14,109 bases of DNA from contig QMNM01000010.1 of NCBI GenBank assembly GCA_003647765.1, positions 1-14,109 of the forward strand, read 5' to 3'. This DNA is from Candidatus Cloacimonadota bacterium (GTDB lineage: Bacteria > Cloacimonadota > Cloacimonadia > JGIOTU-2 > B8-G9). The translations under genes and the position numbers were made by a program. Shown one piece after another: positions 3,422-13,736 of the stretch. Each line of letters starts with the position of its first letter. Position 1 is the first letter of the stretch. Under the pieces are notes generated by a model. It was not told where the DNA came from. It was given only the letters and a program-made list of their open reading frames with translations, and ran no database searches.

Positions 3422-3465
3422 AAACCCGACTCGAGTTCAAAGAACCCGAGTCGAGTTTCTGTTTT
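3422..3465 (+). terminator. Probable Rho-independent terminator of sppA
   Basis: Ten bases after the sppA stop, 3422-3437 and 3443-3458 can form a 16-bp stem with two C-A mismatches and a 5-base loop. A short CTGTTTT tract follows. Each arm contains a near-palindromic CGA-TCGAG core, so the arms also read as near-identical direct repeats. The modest T-run keeps confidence moderate. Confidence 0.65.
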
Positions 3466-3514
3466 CAAGTAATATTAACGAATTAACAAAATCCTATGTC
3501 GTTAGGGGGCAGAT

Positions 3515-6500
3515 ATGAAATTTATTGCTGATTTTCACATTCATTCGCATTTTTCTATAGCGACAAGTAAGAAACTTATTCCAGAAAATCTTGTGAAATG
3601 GGCGCAATTAAAAGGAATAAAGCTTGTTGGTACAGGAGATTTTGTCCATCCTGGCTGGATGAAGGAATTAAAGGAAAAAATAGAACCAGCAGAGCAAGGA
3701 CTATTTAGGATTAAAAATGAATATAGAAATGATAAACTACATGTTTTCAGTTCTTGCAAAGATGAAGTGAGATTCATTCTTACAGCAGAGATAAGCAACA
3801 TCTATAAAAAGCAAGGGGAAGTTCGTAAAGTGCATAATCTCATCTTTGTTCCTGACTTTACTATTGCAGAGAAAATTCAAAAAGCATTGGCAAAAATTGG
3901 CAATATTACTTCTGATGGCAGGCCCATTTTAGGATTGGATTCTAAAAACCTATTAGAGATTGTATTAGAATCATCTGATGATGCATTTTTAATTCCAGCT
4001 CATATATGGACGCCATGGTTCTCGGTTCTCGGCTCAAAATCAGGATTTGACAATATAACAGAATGTTACGATGAACTGACTGATTACATTTTTGCTGTGG
4101 AAACCGGGCTGTCTTCAGACCCTCCAATGAATTGGATGTGTAGTTTCTTGGACAGATTTACTATTGTTTCCAATTCTGATGCACATTCCCCTGAAAAATT
4201 AGGCAGAGAAGCAAATATATTTGATACTGAACTATCTTACAATTCTGTAAAAGAAGCAATGAAAACTGGCAATCCCAAAAATTTTCTTGGCACTATTGAG
4301 TTCTTTCCGCAAGAAGGTAAATATCATTTTGACGGACATAGAAAATGTGGTATTAGATGGAGTCCTATACAAACATTGCAAAATGATGGAATATGTCCAG
4401 AATGTCATAAAAAGGTAACTATCGGTGTTATGAATAGAGTTGCACAACTGGCTGATAGAGAGAATTGTTATGAAAGAAGGAATAGGCATCCATTTTACTC
4501 ACTTATCCCTCTTAAAGAAATAATTGCTGAATTTCTACATATCGGAGTAAGCGCGAAAAGTGTTGATAGAACATATAATTCTCTCCTAGAAAAAGCTGGC
4601 TCAGAATTTACTATACTATTAGACATTCCAGAAGAGGAGTTAAAAAACATAATGAATAAAGAACTTGCTCAAGGCATAATTAGAATGCGAAAAGGAAATG
4701 TCTATATAGAAGAGGGTTATGATGGTGAATTTGGTAAAATAAAGGTATTTAACAAACAACTAAAAGCACACACTTCACAAAAGAAAATGTTTGGTAGTAT
4801 ATCAACCGAAAATCAAGAAGCAAAAGAGAAAACCATTATCCACATAGGATTTAATCTTAAAGAGTATAAGAGATTAGTCCAAAAAATGAAAACTCGGCAA
4901 TCTGACGATATTTCTGAAGTTAAAGAAAAGAAGAAAAATTTCATCTCTTTGAACACTCAACAAGAGAAAGCAATAGAACATCATTCTGGACCCATTTTAA
5001 TTATAGCAGGGCCAGGTACAGGAAAAACTCTAACTCTTACATCAAGGATTGCTCATTTAATCCGTAATAGACATATTAAGCCAGAGCATATACTTGCAAT
5101 AACTTTTACAAATAAAGCATCAATGGAAATGAAAGAACGATTAAATCATTTATTAGAAGATGAGCATATTATAGCAGATTTAAATGTTTCTACTTTTCAT
5201 TCTTTTGGACTCTCTATTCTAAAAGAGCATTGTAATAAATTTGGAAGAGATAGTAATTTCTCTATTTTAGACGAAGAGGAAAAGAAACAGGCATTTTCCA
5301 AAATCGGTATAACTCAAAAAGAGATTAATTCTTATGTCAAAAAGATAACTTCTGCAAAGCAACTTGTTAAGTCATATAAAGACATATCTGACGAAAATTT
5401 TGCTAGGATATATAAAAAATATGAGCAATTACTTAAAAAATATAATGCTTTTGATATTGATGATTTAATCTATTATCCAGTCAAATTATTGTCGGAGTTT
5501 TCTGATATTGCTAATCAATATAGAGAGAAATATCAATGGATACTTGTGGACGAATATCAAGATATAAACTATGCTCAATATCAGTTTATACGATTATTAG
5601 CACCTAATAAACATTCCAATTTATCAGTGATTGGAGATCCAAATCAAGCAATTTATGGTTTTCGTGGTGCGAATGTGAAATTCATTAAGGACTTTACAAA
5701 TGATTATCCAAATGCAACTGTGTATATACTACAAAAAAGCTATCGTTGTTCTGACAGAATTTTAAAGGCATCGGATCAAGTAATAGGCAATATTTCTAAA
5801 ACTATGTTAAAAGGAATGGAATCAGGCATTAGGATCAACATTGCTGAGAATGCTACTGATAAAAGTGAAGCAGAATTTGTTGCTCGCACAATAGAAAGTA
5901 TGATGGGTGGATTACGGTTCTTTTCTATAGATAGTCAGGTAGCGGATGGATATAAAACATTGGGTATGGAAGGGCTATCAGATTTTGCTGTGCTGTGCAG
6001 AATCAATAGGCAAATGGACGCCATAGAAAAAGCATTTATTGACCATAGTATCCCATATCAAAAAATTACGAATAAACCATTTTTCCAACAGAGACCTGTC
6101 AACACGATCATTGATTTCTTGAAATTATCTATGAACCTCAAAAATGATATTATTTTGGACAAATTAGCAAAACAGTTAAGTGCAAATCACAAAGTTAATA
6201 TAGATAATTTAAGAAATTTTGCTGATACTTTACAAAATATGGCAATTAGTAAAGCAGTAAAAATGATTGTAAGTAATTATCTTAAAGATGAAACGGATAA
6301 TGTATTGATTAAAGAATTGTTAAACATTACACATGATTTTGGGAAAAATGCCAAGGAATTTATTAGATATACAATATTAGGCAGTGGTATAGATGCTTAT
6401 AAATCTGATGTAGAGAATGTTGCATTGATGAGTATTCATTCGGCTAAAGGATTGGAGTTTAAAACTGTTTTTATAGTGGGTTGTGAGAATGGATTATTGC

Positions 6501-6760
6501 CTTATACGATTTTCAATGCGCATGGAATAGACCTTGATGAAGAAAGACGGCTCTTTTATGTAGGAATGACAAGGGCAAAAAAATTCCTATTTCTTACTTA
6601 TGCAAAAAAGAGGATGCTTTTTGGACAGATAATGAATTTAAGTAAAAGTCCTTATTTATCTGATATAGAAAAAGAGTTGGTGAAATTATCAAAATCCGAG
6701 TATAAGAAGCCAAAAAAGAAAAAGCATGATGATCAGGAGACCTTATTTTCCCTGAAATAA
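3515..6760 (+). CDS. Endonuclease Q-like PHP nuclease fused to UvrD/Rep-family helicase
   Basis: This 1081-residue protein joins two repair activities. Residues 1 to about 412 match endonuclease Q, which nicks DNA 5' of deaminated bases (uracil, hypoxanthine) and abasic sites. The PHP metal ligands are visible: His8 and His10 (FHIHSH), Asp42 and His45 (GDFVH), Glu92, His107, His163, Asp222 and His224 (SDAHS). A zinc-binding segment has Cys278, Cys294 and Cys297 with His275 nearby. The EndoQ C-terminal signature EEGYDGEFGKIKVF is at 399-412. A charged linker (about 413-476) leads to a superfamily-1 helicase: Q-motif LNTQQEKAI, Walker A GPGTGKT (499-505), Walker B DEYQD (679-683), GDPNQAIYGFRG (from 707), a C-terminal HSAKGLEF motif, and motif VI GMTRAKK (Arg1020). 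All key residues are present and the frame is continuous. The start has an AGGGGG site. Coupled nicking and unwinding is an inference; the domain calls are firm. Confidence 0.92.
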   Translation: MKFIADFHIHSHFSIATSKKLIPENLVKWAQLKGIKLVGTGDFVHPGWMKELKEKIEPAEQGLFRIKNEYRNDKLHVFSSCKDEVRFILTAEISNIYKKQGEVRKVHNLIFVPDFTIAEKIQKALAKIGNITSDGRPILGLDSKNLLEIVLESSDDAFLIPAHIWTPWFSVLGSKSGFDNITECYDELTDYIFAVETGLSSDPPMNWMCSFLDRFTIVSNSDAHSPEKLGREANIFDTELSYNSVKEAMKTGNPKNFLGTIEFFPQEGKYHFDGHRKCGIRWSPIQTLQNDGICPECHKKVTIGVMNRVAQLADRENCYERRNRHPFYSLIPLKEIIAEFLHIGVSAKSVDRTYNSLLEKAGSEFTILLDIPEEELKNIMNKELAQGIIRMRKGNVYIEEGYDGEFGKIKVFNKQLKAHTSQKKMFGSISTENQEAKEKTIIHIGFNLKEYKRLVQKMKTRQSDDISEVKEKKKNFISLNTQQEKAIEHHSGPILIIAGPGTGKTLTLTSRIAHLIRNRHIKPEHILAITFTNKASMEMKERLNHLLEDEHIIADLNVSTFHSFGLSILKEHCNKFGRDSNFSILDEEEKKQAFSKIGITQKEINSYVKKITSAKQLVKSYKDISDENFARIYKKYEQLLKKYNAFDIDDLIYYPVKLLSEFSDIANQYREKYQWILVDEYQDINYAQYQFIRLLAPNKHSNLSVIGDPNQAIYGFRGANVKFIKDFTNDYPNATVYILQKSYRCSDRILKASDQVIGNISKTMLKGMESGIRINIAENATDKSEAEFVARTIESMMGGLRFFSIDSQVADGYKTLGMEGLSDFAVLCRINRQMDAIEKAFIDHSIPYQKITNKPFFQQRPVNTIIDFLKLSMNLKNDIILDKLAKQLSANHKVNIDNLRNFADTLQNMAISKAVKMIVSNYLKDETDNVLIKELLNITHDFGKNAKEFIRYTILGSGIDAYKSDVENVALMSIHSAKGLEFKTVFIVGCENGLLPYTIFNAHGIDLDEERRLFYVGMTRAKKFLFLTYAKKRMLFGQIMNLSKSPYLSDIEKELVKLSKSEYKKPKKKKHDDQETLFSLK

Positions 6761-9798: not shown

Positions 9799-9863
9799 GA
9801 TAATATCCACCTAATTGGTGAGAGTACCAAAAAATATAAGGAGTAATTATGTTAGCAATTAAA
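9799..9863 (+). repeat. 65-bp perfect direct repeat, copy 1 (antitoxin leader)
   Basis: Positions 9799-9863 are identical, base for base, to 10704-10768. The unit covers the end of a mazE coding region (the GATAATATC codons), a short inverted repeat, the ribosome-binding site and the first five codons (MLAIK) of an antitoxin gene. Weaker similarity continues leftward to about 9783 (ATTGATTA shared). The following coding sequences differ between copies. Confidence 0.95.
9808..9843 (+). promoter_or_regulatory. Leader with small inverted repeat and Shine-Dalgarno site for vapB
   Basis: CACC-TAATT-GGTG at 9808-9820 is a short inverted repeat that could be an autoregulatory operator. AAGGAG at 9838-9843 is a strong ribosome-binding site 5 bases before the vapB ATG. 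The same arrangement recurs at 10713-10748 in repeat copy 2. The operator role is an inference from the TA habit of autorepression; the four-base arms are weak evidence. Confidence 0.4.
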
Positions 9864-10094
9864 AATAAAGGCAGATATATTAACGATAGAGAGATTTTAA
9901 TAGACAAACCATTAAAAGATATTCCTATTGGAGCAAGTATTGAAATTATCGTTTTATTCCCAGAAGAGAAAAAAAGTAGTAAAAATGAGTGGCTATCTAA
10001 AGTTGAGAAAATGTCTGTCTGGGATGAAGAAACTTTGAACAGAATAGAAAATGTAGGGAGAGAGATAAACAAATGGAAAATAACGACATTTTAG
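9849..10094 (+). CDS. vapB: VapB-type antitoxin, partner of the PIN toxin
   Basis: This 81-residue small protein lies directly before and overlaps (22 bases) a PIN-domain toxin, the usual VapB-VapC arrangement. Its N-terminus, MLAIKNKGRYINDREI, resembles the short DNA-binding strand region seen in several antitoxin families. Its C-terminus has WDEETLNRIENVGREINKWK, like the toxin-binding helix of VapB proteins that ends INKWxI. It would neutralise VapC and repress the operon. The first five codons lie in the 65-bp repeat also found before the second antitoxin. AAGGAG is 5 bases upstream. The specific VapB subfamily is not resolved. Confidence 0.75.
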   Translation: MLAIKNKGRYINDREILIDKPLKDIPIGASIEIIVLFPEEKKSSKNEWLSKVEKMSVWDEETLNRIENVGREINKWKITTF

Positions 10095-10471
10095 TTGATA
10101 CGAATATCTTGATTGACTTCTTTCGTAAGAAAAATAAGCAAAAAACAATTCTGAAGCCGCTATTACCTGACTACAATTTCTATTTATCAGTCATAACAAT
10201 CTTTGAATTTGATTGTGGAGTAACTGACCAACAATTTAGAGATGAATTTAAAACCTTAATAGAACCTTTTACAATTTTGGATTTTGATCTGGAGTGTAGT
10301 TATGTTGCATCAAAAATCTATAAAGATTTGAAGAGAATAAACAAAATGATTGAGATGAAGGATATGTTTATTGCAGCTACCGCTCTTGAAAATAATCTGA
10401 AATTGTTGACCTTAAACAATAAACACTTTGAGAATATATCTGAAATAATTTTATTTAGTAAAATCAAATAA
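10073..10471 (+). CDS. vapC: VapC-type PIN-domain ribonuclease toxin
   Basis: This 132-residue PIN-domain protein has the normal size for a VapC toxin, a Mg2+-dependent RNase that typically cuts tRNA or rRNA. Acidic active-site residues are visible: Asp9 in ILVDTNILIDFF, Glu45 in SVITIFEFDCG and Asp97 in EMKDMFIAATAL. The fourth position, in TLNNKHFE, is Asn115, common in this family. The frame is intact and overlaps vapB, so the pair is translationally coupled and looks functional. It is the only complete type II pair in the island. The RNA target cannot be told from sequence. Confidence 0.9.
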   Translation: MENNDILVDTNILIDFFRKKNKQKTILKPLLPDYNFYLSVITIFEFDCGVTDQQFRDEFKTLIEPFTILDFDLECSYVASKIYKDLKRINKMIEMKDMFIAATALENNLKLLTLNNKHFENISEIILFSKIK

Positions 10472-10984: not shown

Positions 10985-11254
10985 ATGATAACAGAAAAAG
11001 ATAAAGAAATAATTTTAAAGTATGCTAAAAAATATAATGTTTCATATATTATTTTATTTGGCTCCTCAATAACAGAATATAAAGAAACGAATGACATTGA
11101 CATAGGAGTAAAGGGAATCAAACCTCAACTATTCTTCAAATTTTATGCTGAGTTATTTAAACATTTATCAAAACCTGTTGATCTTGTTGATATTTCTAAA
11201 GAGTCGTTATTTAATCAGATTATAGAAGAAACCGGGGTAAGAATTTATGGATAA
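10985..11254 (+). CDS. mntA: MntA-type minimal nucleotidyltransferase antitoxin
   Basis: This 89-residue MNT-domain protein has the nucleotidyltransferase signature GSS (26-28) followed by NDIDIGV, giving Gly26-Ser27 and Asp37-X-Asp39. A third carboxylate, Asp66, is in PVDLVD. The known role of MntA proteins is to neutralise a HEPN toxin by adding AMP units to a tyrosine next to its active site. It overlaps the HEPN gene by 8 bases (ATGGATAA), so both are translated together. Its ribosome-binding site AGGAG (10971-10975) lies inside the end of the frameshifted antitoxin. All catalytic residues are intact. If it did not act on HepT it would be an uncharacterised small NTase, but the overlap makes the pairing very likely. 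Confidence 0.9.
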   Translation: MITEKDKEIILKYAKKYNVSYIILFGSSITEYKETNDIDIGVKGIKPQLFFKFYAELFKHLSKPVDLVDISKESLFNQIIEETGVRIYG

Positions 11255-11684
11255 ACTAAATAGGCAGATTCTTGCAGAAAAGGAGAATGTTGATATAGCT
11301 CTGGATAATCTCAAAAATGCAATGGCAAGAACAGATAAATCAATTATTGAATTAGCCGCTATTGGTACATTTCTTCACAATATCTACAATGGGATAGAAA
11401 ATATCTTAAAGCAAATTCTATATGCAAAAAGTGTTGATATACCTAAATCTGATACATGGCATAAAGACCTCTTAAATCTATCAGTTTCTATTGGTGTTAT
11501 TTCAGAGGATTTATCTGATAAACTTTATGAATATCTAACTTTTAGACATTTTTTTGTTCATTCTTATGGATTTATGCTTGTAGAATTTCATTTAGAAGAT
11601 TTAGCTAATAACATTCCTGATATTTGGTCGCAATTTCTATTGGAGATACAGAATTTATTAAATGAGTTGGAACTTAATGGATAA
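11247..11684 (+). CDS. hepT: HepT-like HEPN ribonuclease toxin
   Basis: This 145-residue, mostly helical protein carries the HEPN RNase motif R-X4-H-X-Y as Arg100, His105 and Tyr107 in RHFFVHSYGF. In HepT toxins the Arg and His cut RNA and the nearby Tyr is the site that MntA AMPylates; all three are present. Length matches HepT (about 130-150). The N-terminal helices (AEKENVDIALDNLKNAM) resemble the HepT dimer bundle. The start codon lies within the end of mntA. The reading frame is complete, so this pair looks functional and is the last element of the TA island. The tRNA-cleaving activity reported for some HepT proteins is known for the family, not shown here. Confidence 0.9.
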   Translation: MDKLNRQILAEKENVDIALDNLKNAMARTDKSIIELAAIGTFLHNIYNGIENILKQILYAKSVDIPKSDTWHKDLLNLSVSIGVISEDLSDKLYEYLTFRHFFVHSYGFMLVEFHLEDLANNIPDIWSQFLLEIQNLLNELELNG

Positions 11685-11819: not shown

Positions 11820-13736
11820 ATGAAAAGATTACTTTTATTGACGGTCATTTCTATTTTGTTGTTCAGCTGTGCAACACAAATGGATTATTCATTCTTACAG
11901 CAAATCAACAAAGATAAGTATGAGAATGCTAATGCAGTTATTGTGTTAGATAGCACTTATACTGATGTTGAAGAATCAGGAAAATATGTAACGACACAGC
12001 ATAAACTTGTAAAAATACTGACGATGAAAGGAAAAGCACAATATTCAGAGGCAACTTTTGGCTATTTTACTTTATATGATACAGTAATTGTAGAAATGGC
12101 AAAAGTAATTAGTCCTGATGGCGAGGTGATAAAAGTTCAAAAAGAGGATATTAAAGATCTAAAAATCCCTGCTTTTGGTAAATTCTTTCTGCCCAATGTT
12201 AGAATGAAAAAGATTATCTTCCCAAATGTTGAGGAAGGTTCATCTGTTGAATATGTAGTGAAAAGTATAATGAGAAATCCTCCAATGGAAAATAATTTTG
12301 ATACTTATGTTCTTTTTGAATCTAGTGAGCCGATAGAAAAAATGGTGTATGTAGTAGCATGCCCAATTCCTCTGAATTGGAAAGTAAAAAATGATGATAG
12401 CCAATCAATACAATTTCAGCAAACCGAGAAAAAAGGTAAACAAATTTACAAATGGTCTGCTGAAAATGTGGCTGGAATAATTGAAGAACCTATGGTGCCA
12501 CCTATTCCAGATGTATGCAAAAAACTCCTTATTACTTCTGTTCCATCGTGGGAAATCTGGTCAAAGTGGTATTGGAATCTTTGTAAGGATAAATTCGCTA
12601 CTAATGATACTATGAATGCAGTAATAGACAGTGTTCTTGTTGGAAAAGAGACAAGAGAGGACAGCATAAGGGCATTGTATTATTATGTCTCAAAAAATGT
12701 AAGATATGTAGCAACTAAAATGTCAGGTAAAAAGGGTGGTTATGAGCCATTCCCAGCAGCAAAATGTTTTAGAGACAAATATGGCGTGTGTCGTGATAAA
12801 GCATGTCTGCTTGCCGCAATGTTGAGAAAAGCAGGATTTGATGCTTATACTGTTTTGACTAATCCATCTTTGAATATAGAAAAGGATATTCCTGTTGACC
12901 AGTTCAATCACGCTATTACTGCTGTAAGAGAAAAAGATGGCAGTTTTTTGTATATTGACCCAACAGCAGAGAATACAAAGGAGTTCTTAATTTCAATTGA
13001 GCAAGATAAGGCAGTGCTTGTATGTGATGAGCATGGTGAAGACCTTGAATATACGCCAAAAGTACCAGCAGAAAAGAATCTCTTTTATATGGAATCAACA
13101 GGATATTTGCAAGAGAATGGTTCACTGAAAGAGACATTGACAATGAAGTTATCAGGGCTGATGGATATGGCTTTCAGACAACTTCTAACAATGCTTCCAC
13201 CAGAACAAATGAAACAGGTATTTCAATCTATGGTAAGTGGAGTGGCAACAGGTGCAATTCTGGATACATTTTATTATAGCGATCCAAAGGACCTTTATAA
13301 GCCATTGGAACTTACTCTTATATTCAATGCTGAAAATTATGGTCTATTTCTTGACGAAACTTTCTCATTCAAATTTCCTTTTTCTTCTGGCGGTGGAGGT
13401 GCCTCTATCTCATTTGGCGGAGGTGGAAATCCATTTGCACTTGAAGAGAGAAAATATCCACTCTATATGTATAGTACGATAAAAACAGAGGTAATAGAAA
13501 CGATTTACATTCCTGAAGGATATGAAGTTATAGAAGTTCCAGAAACTGTTAAAGAGAATCTCGGCTTCTTTAGTATGGAAAGTCAATATAGAGTAAGGGA
13601 TAAGTTTATTTCTCACAATGCTGTGGCTACCTTTAATGACTTTATTTTTCCACCTGATAAGTATAAGAAGATTAAGTCCATTATGGATAAAGTATCAGAA
13701 AAGAGCGGTCAAGAAGTGATTCTTAGGAAGAAATAG
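11820..13736 (+). CDS. DUF3857/transglutaminase-like lipoprotein
   Basis: This 638-residue protein has a lipoprotein signal: a hydrophobic stretch ending LLFSC with Cys17 as the lipidated residue. Residues about 34-240 match the DUF3857 beta-rich domain (ITTQHKLVKI-like strands, SPDGEVIKV, VEEGSSVEYV). A transglutaminase-like papain-fold domain follows, with Cys324 in YGVCRDKACLLAAMLRKAG, His364 in DQFNHAI and Asp380 in YIDPTAE, a complete Cys-His-Asp set. The C-terminal third contains two Gly4 tracts at 524-527 and 533-536 and no recognised domain. It is probably anchored in the outer or inner membrane facing the periplasm. The function is not known: candidates are peptide cleavage, crosslinking or cell-wall modification. 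AAGGAG is 6 bases upstream. The next gene downstream is a paralog. Confidence 0.88.
   Translation: MKRLLLLTVISILLFSCATQMDYSFLQQINKDKYENANAVIVLDSTYTDVEESGKYVTTQHKLVKILTMKGKAQYSEATFGYFTLYDTVIVEMAKVISPDGEVIKVQKEDIKDLKIPAFGKFFLPNVRMKKIIFPNVEEGSSVEYVVKSIMRNPPMENNFDTYVLFESSEPIEKMVYVVACPIPLNWKVKNDDSQSIQFQQTEKKGKQIYKWSAENVAGIIEEPMVPPIPDVCKKLLITSVPSWEIWSKWYWNLCKDKFATNDTMNAVIDSVLVGKETREDSIRALYYYVSKNVRYVATKMSGKKGGYEPFPAAKCFRDKYGVCRDKACLLAAMLRKAGFDAYTVLTNPSLNIEKDIPVDQFNHAITAVREKDGSFLYIDPTAENTKEFLISIEQDKAVLVCDEHGEDLEYTPKVPAEKNLFYMESTGYLQENGSLKETLTMKLSGLMDMAFRQLLTMLPPEQMKQVFQSMVSGVATGAILDTFYYSDPKDLYKPLELTLIFNAENYGLFLDETFSFKFPFSSGGGGASISFGGGGNPFALEERKYPLYMYSTIKTEVIETIYIPEGYEVIEVPETVKENLGFFSMESQYRVRDKFISHNAVATFNDFIFPPDKYKKIKSIMDKVSEKSGQEVILRKK

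Follow-up and report, generated by a model that had tools for sequence, protein, structure and literature searches.

The question raised by the gene at positions 3515-6760 of contig QMNM01000010.1, from a Candidatus Cloacimonadota bacterium, is why an endonuclease Q (EndoQ), an enzyme that nicks DNA beside deaminated bases, is joined in one polypeptide to a helicase of the UvrD family, and what the joined enzyme may do. In the window, i.e., the whole stretch of 14,109 nucleotides that was analysed, the gene forms an uninterrupted frame with an ATG start, coding for 1081 amino acids plus a stop; its features, given below by their positions in the window, are on the forward (+) strand. An assembly artefact or a chance joining of two genes was ruled out by 30 distinct full-length fused homologues from independent genomes, with additional forms in Elusimicrobiota and Omnitrophota. 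The evidence inclines us slightly to the view that the fused protein removes deaminated bases by excision repair while tethered to the clamp, as may be judged from its sequence and predicted structure.

Each half of the protein belongs to a known family; new are the joining of the two, the corresponding operon and the pairing of clamp motifs. No report of an EndoQ-helicase fusion, and no biochemical study of one, was found in a full-text literature search, with subscription papers and database annotations outside its scope; similar proteins may well be annotated in databases as UvrD-helicase proteins. In the papers covered, the step that follows the nick of EndoQ has been proposed in outline only, as strand displacement and flap cutting (PMC4357722). 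Nature's own joining of EndoQ to a helicase, with clamp motifs added, suggests what this missing step may be and makes it accessible with one protein.

The EndoQ module and the attached helicase

Judged from sequence and model, the N-terminal half (residues 1-419; 3515-4771) is an EndoQ module that lacks no part, with its catalytic and base-pocket residues intact and a predicted zinc site in place, consisting of a PHP nuclease domain, a zinc-binding domain and the C-terminal signature GYDGEFG. The phmmer match to PfuEndoQ covered residues 5-419 with an expectation value (E) of 3.7e-54, and a search of this half against solved structures returned EndoQ entries only (5zb8, 7k30, and 7k31). In VIA-align, the AlphaFold2 model of the whole protein (mean predicted local distance difference test, pLDDT, 87.7; predicted template modelling score, pTM, 0.67) was superposed on PfuEndoQ 5zb8 with Z 48.1 and a root-mean-square deviation of 2.6, 386 of the 398 residues of 5zb8_B being aligned, and the two modules were about 34-35% identical. 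The NCBIfam model covering EndoQ, TIGR00375, gave 188 bits, below its curated cut-off of 326.6. This cut-off was reached in none of 121 Cloacimonadota and none of 334 Omnitrophota genomes, and thus excludes this bacterial branch of EndoQ as a whole. Assignment of this half to another PHP family was also considered, and no other such family scored in the profile searches.

In a residue-by-residue mapping to PfuEndoQ, the catalytic ligands were all kept. They include E92 (3788-3790), H107 (3833-3835) and H163 (4001-4003), corresponding to E76, H84, and H139, and the pair D222-A-H224 (4178-4186), corresponding to D193 and H195; the PHP metal ligands H8-x-H10 lie at 3536-3544. The base-pocket residues, namely H163 together with G198 and S200 of G198-L-S200 (4106-4114; G169 and S171 in PfuEndoQ), were likewise conserved. 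These catalytic and base-pocket positions did not vary among 56 fused modules, except for a single gap where the first two histidines would stand, and were equally invariant in 15 EndoQs of the operon form described below and in 36 solo EndoQs. In PfuEndoQ, E76, H84, and H139 are essential, and normal T and A are kept out of the pocket by H139, G169, and S171 (review PMC8307549). The predicted zinc site, H275/C278...C294/C297 (4337-4405), has three cysteines and His275 in place of Cys249 of the archaeal enzyme, and the same histidine was found in the bacterial EndoQs examined. Histidine is also able to bind zinc.

By homology to EndoQ, the module would be expected to recognise uracil, hypoxanthine and similar lesions. 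A shift of its specificity towards other small lesions or ribonucleotides, with the fold kept and a different lesion repaired by clamp-linked nicking and displacement, could be proposed from the identity of only 35% to PfuEndoQ, from the retention of uracil-DNA glycosylase (UDG) in fusion genomes, and from the report that PfuEndoQ also accepts oxidised pyrimidines (PMC8307549). However, the pocket residues that exclude normal T and A are invariant and the EndoQs of B. subtilis and B. pumilus have been reported to be active (PMC4357722; PMC8307549), which makes such a shift unlikely.

Two groups of EndoQ-like sequences were unusual in other respects. The Cloacimonadota solo EndoQ-like proteins L083-L095 (29-33% identity) formed a very divergent group on a branch of 3.15, in which the catalytic residues were all kept and one zinc cysteine was replaced, mostly by Asp or Asn. 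Two Omnitrophota EndoQ frames (L109:244-2721, + strand; L111:1444-3918, - strand) carried an intein-like insert matching Intein_splicing and LAGLIDADG_3.

The C-terminal half matched PF00580 (E 4.9e-81) and PF13361, and NCBIfam and Protein Data Bank searches agreed in placing it with UvrD/PcrA/Rep. In VIA-align it matched 4c2u (Z 41.7, 559 residues aligned), and UvrD-DNA complexes were aligned over 550-559 residues; the Z values for the PcrA/UvrD/Rep fold were 36-42. The helicase of superfamily 1A (SF1A) occupies residues 478-1060 (4946-6694), and motifs I to VI were all present in an alignment of 30 sequences, among them motif I AGPGTGKT (5006-5029), motif II DEYQD (5549-5563), motif V HSAKGLE (6437-6457) and motif VI YVGMTR (6557-6574). 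The initial annotation had described a whole EndoQ-like module, with its PHP ligands, zinc site and C-terminal signature, joined to a helicase with all motifs intact, and both descriptions were borne out by these matches; its suggestion that one protein could in principle both nick and unwind is also supported by the sequence. Added here to that description are two predicted clamp motifs, one at the junction and one at the C-terminus, as well as the operon form and the reshaping of the helicase.

Sequence and model indicate that this half is a UvrD-family helicase and not an orthologue of PcrA or UvrD. It scored 429 bits against the curated PcrA model, for which the cut-off is 911, and the PcrA of the cell is encoded by a separate gene, about 36% identical to the fused helicase; other fusion-bearing genomes also keep a PcrA-like gene of their own. 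The fused helicase shares with PcrA, UvrD and Rep all motifs and the fold with regions 1A, 1B, 2A, and 2B, but it differs from these 3'-5' helicases in forming a separate clade, in a shorter stretch between motifs III and V, in the loss of the Tudor-type tail, in ending with a beta-clamp motif, and in the attached nuclease. Since motifs III and V are separated by 268 residues, against 313 in PcrA of the same phylum, and only 67 residues follow motif VI, against about 125, the 2B region is taken from the sequence to be shortened and the C-terminal tail of PcrA to be lost. Deletion of 2B activates the helicase monomer, and PcrA, UvrD, and Rep are acted on by the activators RepD, MutL, and PriC, respectively (PMC13238157). 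The shortened autoinhibitory 2B region and the lost tail suggest a helicase that has been freed from its usual partners and answers instead to the clamp and to the nuclease joined to it. A motor of the UvrD family would in this case have been redirected to the sliding clamp.

Predicted clamp motifs and a possible repair route

The two modules are joined by a linker (residues 420-477; 4772-4945), with disordered segments at 419-437 and 466-476 and a helix at 448-473 that adjoins the family motif (I/L)NFDLxEYRRL. A clamp-type motif, Q422-KKM-F426 (4778-4792), lies at the junction as a remnant of the C-terminal motif of stand-alone EndoQ, and a predicted beta-clamp-binding motif, Q1074-ETL-F1078 (6734-6748), lies in the low-confidence tail. 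QLxLF is an experimentally validated beta-clamp-binding consensus that is usually C-terminal (PMC4549789). When a fixed pattern of the QLxLF type was counted in the last 14 residues, it was present in 39 of 42 complete fused proteins (ending in QLSLF, QLNLF, QLELF, QETLF or similar), in 18 of 19 operon helicases, in 13 of 15 operon EndoQs and in 12 of the 13 solo Omnitrophota EndoQs counted, compared with 0 of 11 PcrA controls and about 1% expected by chance from shuffled tails. At the junction, F426 was invariant in the 30-sequence alignment and the hydrophobic-F part was present in 40 of 42 fused proteins. Both motif segments fall in disordered, low-confidence stretches of the model (419-437 and from residue 1063 onwards, with pLDDT of about 50 or below in the tail), as would suit a peptide in a free segment. 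The fused protein may thus be expected to bind the beta clamp through these predicted motifs.

Apart from its helicase, the protein resembles PfuEndoQ, TkoEndoQ, and Bacillus EndoQ in fold, catalytic ligands, base pocket, zinc domain and the C-terminal GxDGxxG, and also in having a clamp motif right after the module, as in the PIP (PCNA-interacting peptide) box of archaeal EndoQ and the QLxLF of Omnitrophota EndoQ. It differs in the fused helicase, in the histidine at the first zinc position relative to PfuEndoQ, and in the old clamp motif, which now stands at the junction and has often lost its Gln. Archaeal EndoQ binds PCNA through the PIP box, which stimulates nicking; bacterial EndoQs have also been noted to carry a clamp motif (PMC4858679).

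The route that we slightly favour would proceed as follows. The EndoQ module, from its close homology, would flip out a uracil, hypoxanthine, xanthine or abasic residue and cut the phosphodiester bond directly 5' of the lesion. The nick would have a 3'-OH primer on one side and, on the other, a downstream strand with the lesion at its 5' end. The linked SF1A helicase, whose 3'-5' polarity is predicted from its family, would then load at the nick, travel along the undamaged strand in the 3' to 5' direction and peel off the lesion-bearing 5' end as a flap; this is the polarity that would remove the lesion, whereas a helicase loaded on the opposite strand would strip off the primer end. The QLxLF-type peptide at the C-terminus, helped in part of the family by the one at the junction, would keep the enzyme attached to the beta sliding clamp. 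Meanwhile the 3'-OH would be extended by a polymerase that is itself bound to the clamp, and a 5' nuclease and ligase would finish the repair. The support for such a route lies in the domains, the integrity of the active site, the motifs and the co-inheritance of the two parts; lesion specificity is deduced from EndoQ homology, polarity from the helicase family, clamp binding from the motif and coupling from the linkage. In addition, a beta clamp gene was present in 24 of the 25 genomes with fusion or operon that were checked.

A similar logic operates in plasmid rolling-circle replication. RepD is origin-specific, becomes covalently linked to the DNA and is not fused to its helicase, whereas the nick predicted here would be directed by a lesion. 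The analogy is one of logic, in that PcrA, a helicase of the UvrD family, is switched on by its nicking enzyme and unwinds from the nick (PMC13238157).

The helicase could instead be a delivery or clearing motor, riding the replisome via the clamp and displacing proteins or opening the duplex so that EndoQ can scan for deaminated bases ahead of or behind the fork, with repair then proceeding as for stand-alone EndoQ. Rep and UvrD have been described as accessory motors at replisomes, the clamp motifs would place the enzyme at replication sites, and EndoQ often carries a clamp motif with no helicase to accompany it, so the helicase is dispensable for the basic pathway. On the other hand, the linkage of a nicking enzyme to a helicase, both as an operon and as a fusion, agrees with a helicase that makes use of the nick. 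Moreover, the Omnitrophota operon helicases are without much of 2B, having a median of 182 residues between motifs III and V against 313 in PcrA, and 2B of Rep is reported to link translocation with protein displacement (PMC6158625). We therefore regard the motor function as possible but rather doubtful.

Several observations weigh against the clamp-tethered repair route itself. The Gln of the junction motif is lost in most fused proteins (the complete QxxLF was found in 17 of 42), and dnaN gave no match in the source genome, of which the assembly is incomplete (1.97 Mb, 88.8% complete). No third gene beside the fusion was conserved across phyla. The pTM of 0.67 leaves the relative placement of the EndoQ and helicase domains in the AlphaFold2 model uncertain, and their coupling in cis is for this reason deduced from the fusion rather than from the structure. 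Finally, a UDG-superfamily gene was kept in 113 of 121 Cloacimonadota genomes, the source genome included, and in 18 of 20 genomes outside this phylum that carry the fusion or the operon, so that the fusion pathway is not the sole route for uracil.

The last result also bears on the expectation in the initial annotation that UDG or endonuclease V (EndoV) would be lost together with the gain of the fusion. UDG was retained, and EndoV was found in only 5 of 121 Cloacimonadota genomes, being rare in the whole phylum irrespective of the fusion. The "compact alternative to base excision repair" proposed there is accordingly better described as an additional route, i.e., the fusion adds to base excision repair and does not replace UDG. 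A more far-reaching reading, offered only tentatively, would make it a self-contained, replication-coupled excision route apart from both base and nucleotide excision repair, in which one polypeptide nicks and strips the damaged strand on the clamp, its two motifs fill both pockets of the clamp dimer, and the whole has spread horizontally, with an operon form in Omnitrophota.

Distribution and history of the association

The original description of EndoQ assigned it to Thermococcales and some methanogens. The view of it as mainly archaeal, adopted in the initial annotation, was contradicted by its presence in 239 of 334 Omnitrophota genomes, where the solo form is near-universal; EndoQ is common in uncultured bacteria. 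The survey of genomes for the fusion proposed there showed that it recurs in at least eight phyla, as named in record titles that mostly belong to metagenome bins: Cloacimonadota, Calditrichota, Spirochaetota, Elusimicrobiota, Bacteroidota, Aminicenantes/Acidobacteriota, Omnitrophota, Planctomycetota (Brocadiia), and Actinomycetota. In a subset of Omnitrophota the same two parts occur as adjacent genes, an EndoQ gene followed by a gene for a related helicase; most of the 19 stand-alone Omnitrophota relatives of the fused helicase have EndoQ upstream on the same strand.

In the helicase tree, fused and operon proteins formed one clade apart from PcrA (100%), with the operon forms clustering together (99%). 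The EndoQ tree agreed, as fused and operon modules clustered and the stand-alone EndoQs of Omnitrophota, Parcubacteria, and Deltaproteobacteria fell outside. From this agreement between the trees, the association of EndoQ and helicase looks old, both parts having been inherited together. When the helicase tree was rooted on PcrA, the Omnitrophota operon was nested inside the fused forms. This would tentatively point to an ancient fusion that was later split rather than to fusion on several occasions, the deep branches concerned being long and only 90-94% supported. Three Cloacimonadota solo EndoQs, without a clamp motif, also nested within the fused clade and represent a probable loss of the helicase. 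On the tree of 37 main-clade fused modules, 11 changes of phylum label were needed for six phyla, and this suggests horizontal transfer of the fusion across phyla, to which mis-binned contigs may contribute.

Such spread could also be expected of a defence system, in which nuclease and UvrD-like helicase would act against phages with uracil-containing or otherwise base-altered DNA by a logic like that of Gabija, where the nuclease GajA is likewise paired with the UvrD-like helicase GajB. An antiviral role has been suggested for bacterial EndoQ (review PMC8307549), and the helicase half does match GajB profiles. However, PcrA scored higher (429 bits, against 315 for the best GajB profile), and the GajB matches thus reflect general UvrD kinship. 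Unlike Gabija, the protein has a nuclease of another family and no defence context: a GajA-type nuclease neighbour was not found in the window, and across phyla no neighbouring gene recurs. The near-universal EndoQ of Omnitrophota is housekeeping-like, and a task in replication or repair is suggested by the clamp motifs at the C-terminus. No phage or plasmid record matched the fusion, and the viral collection yielded one distant helicase and nothing else. A defence function is, on these grounds, very improbable.

The locus and its neighbourhood

The probable ribosome-binding site of the fusion gene, AGGGGG (3504-3509), was read from the sequence 5 nucleotides ahead of the ATG. The gene is preceded by sppA and followed by glmS (from sequence), recO and toxin-antitoxin-like genes. 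Between sppA and the fusion gene, an imperfect inverted repeat followed by TGTTTT (3422-3459) appeared terminator-like by eye, but a consensus terminator scan called none near the fusion gene, this repeat included. In two related Cloacimonadota genomes (L004:4834-5889 and L032:7964-9064), the gene downstream of the fusion joins a methyltransferase domain to a UDG-superfamily domain, an unusual repair-related fusion.

Farther downstream in the window, two toxin-antitoxin-like pairs were found, one consisting of a small, weakly RelN-like gene and a PIN/VapC-type gene (9849-10471), and the other of an MNT-like nucleotidyltransferase and a HepT-like partner (10985-11684). They are followed by a gene for a DUF3857 and transglutaminase-like protein with a lipoprotein-type start (11820-13736).

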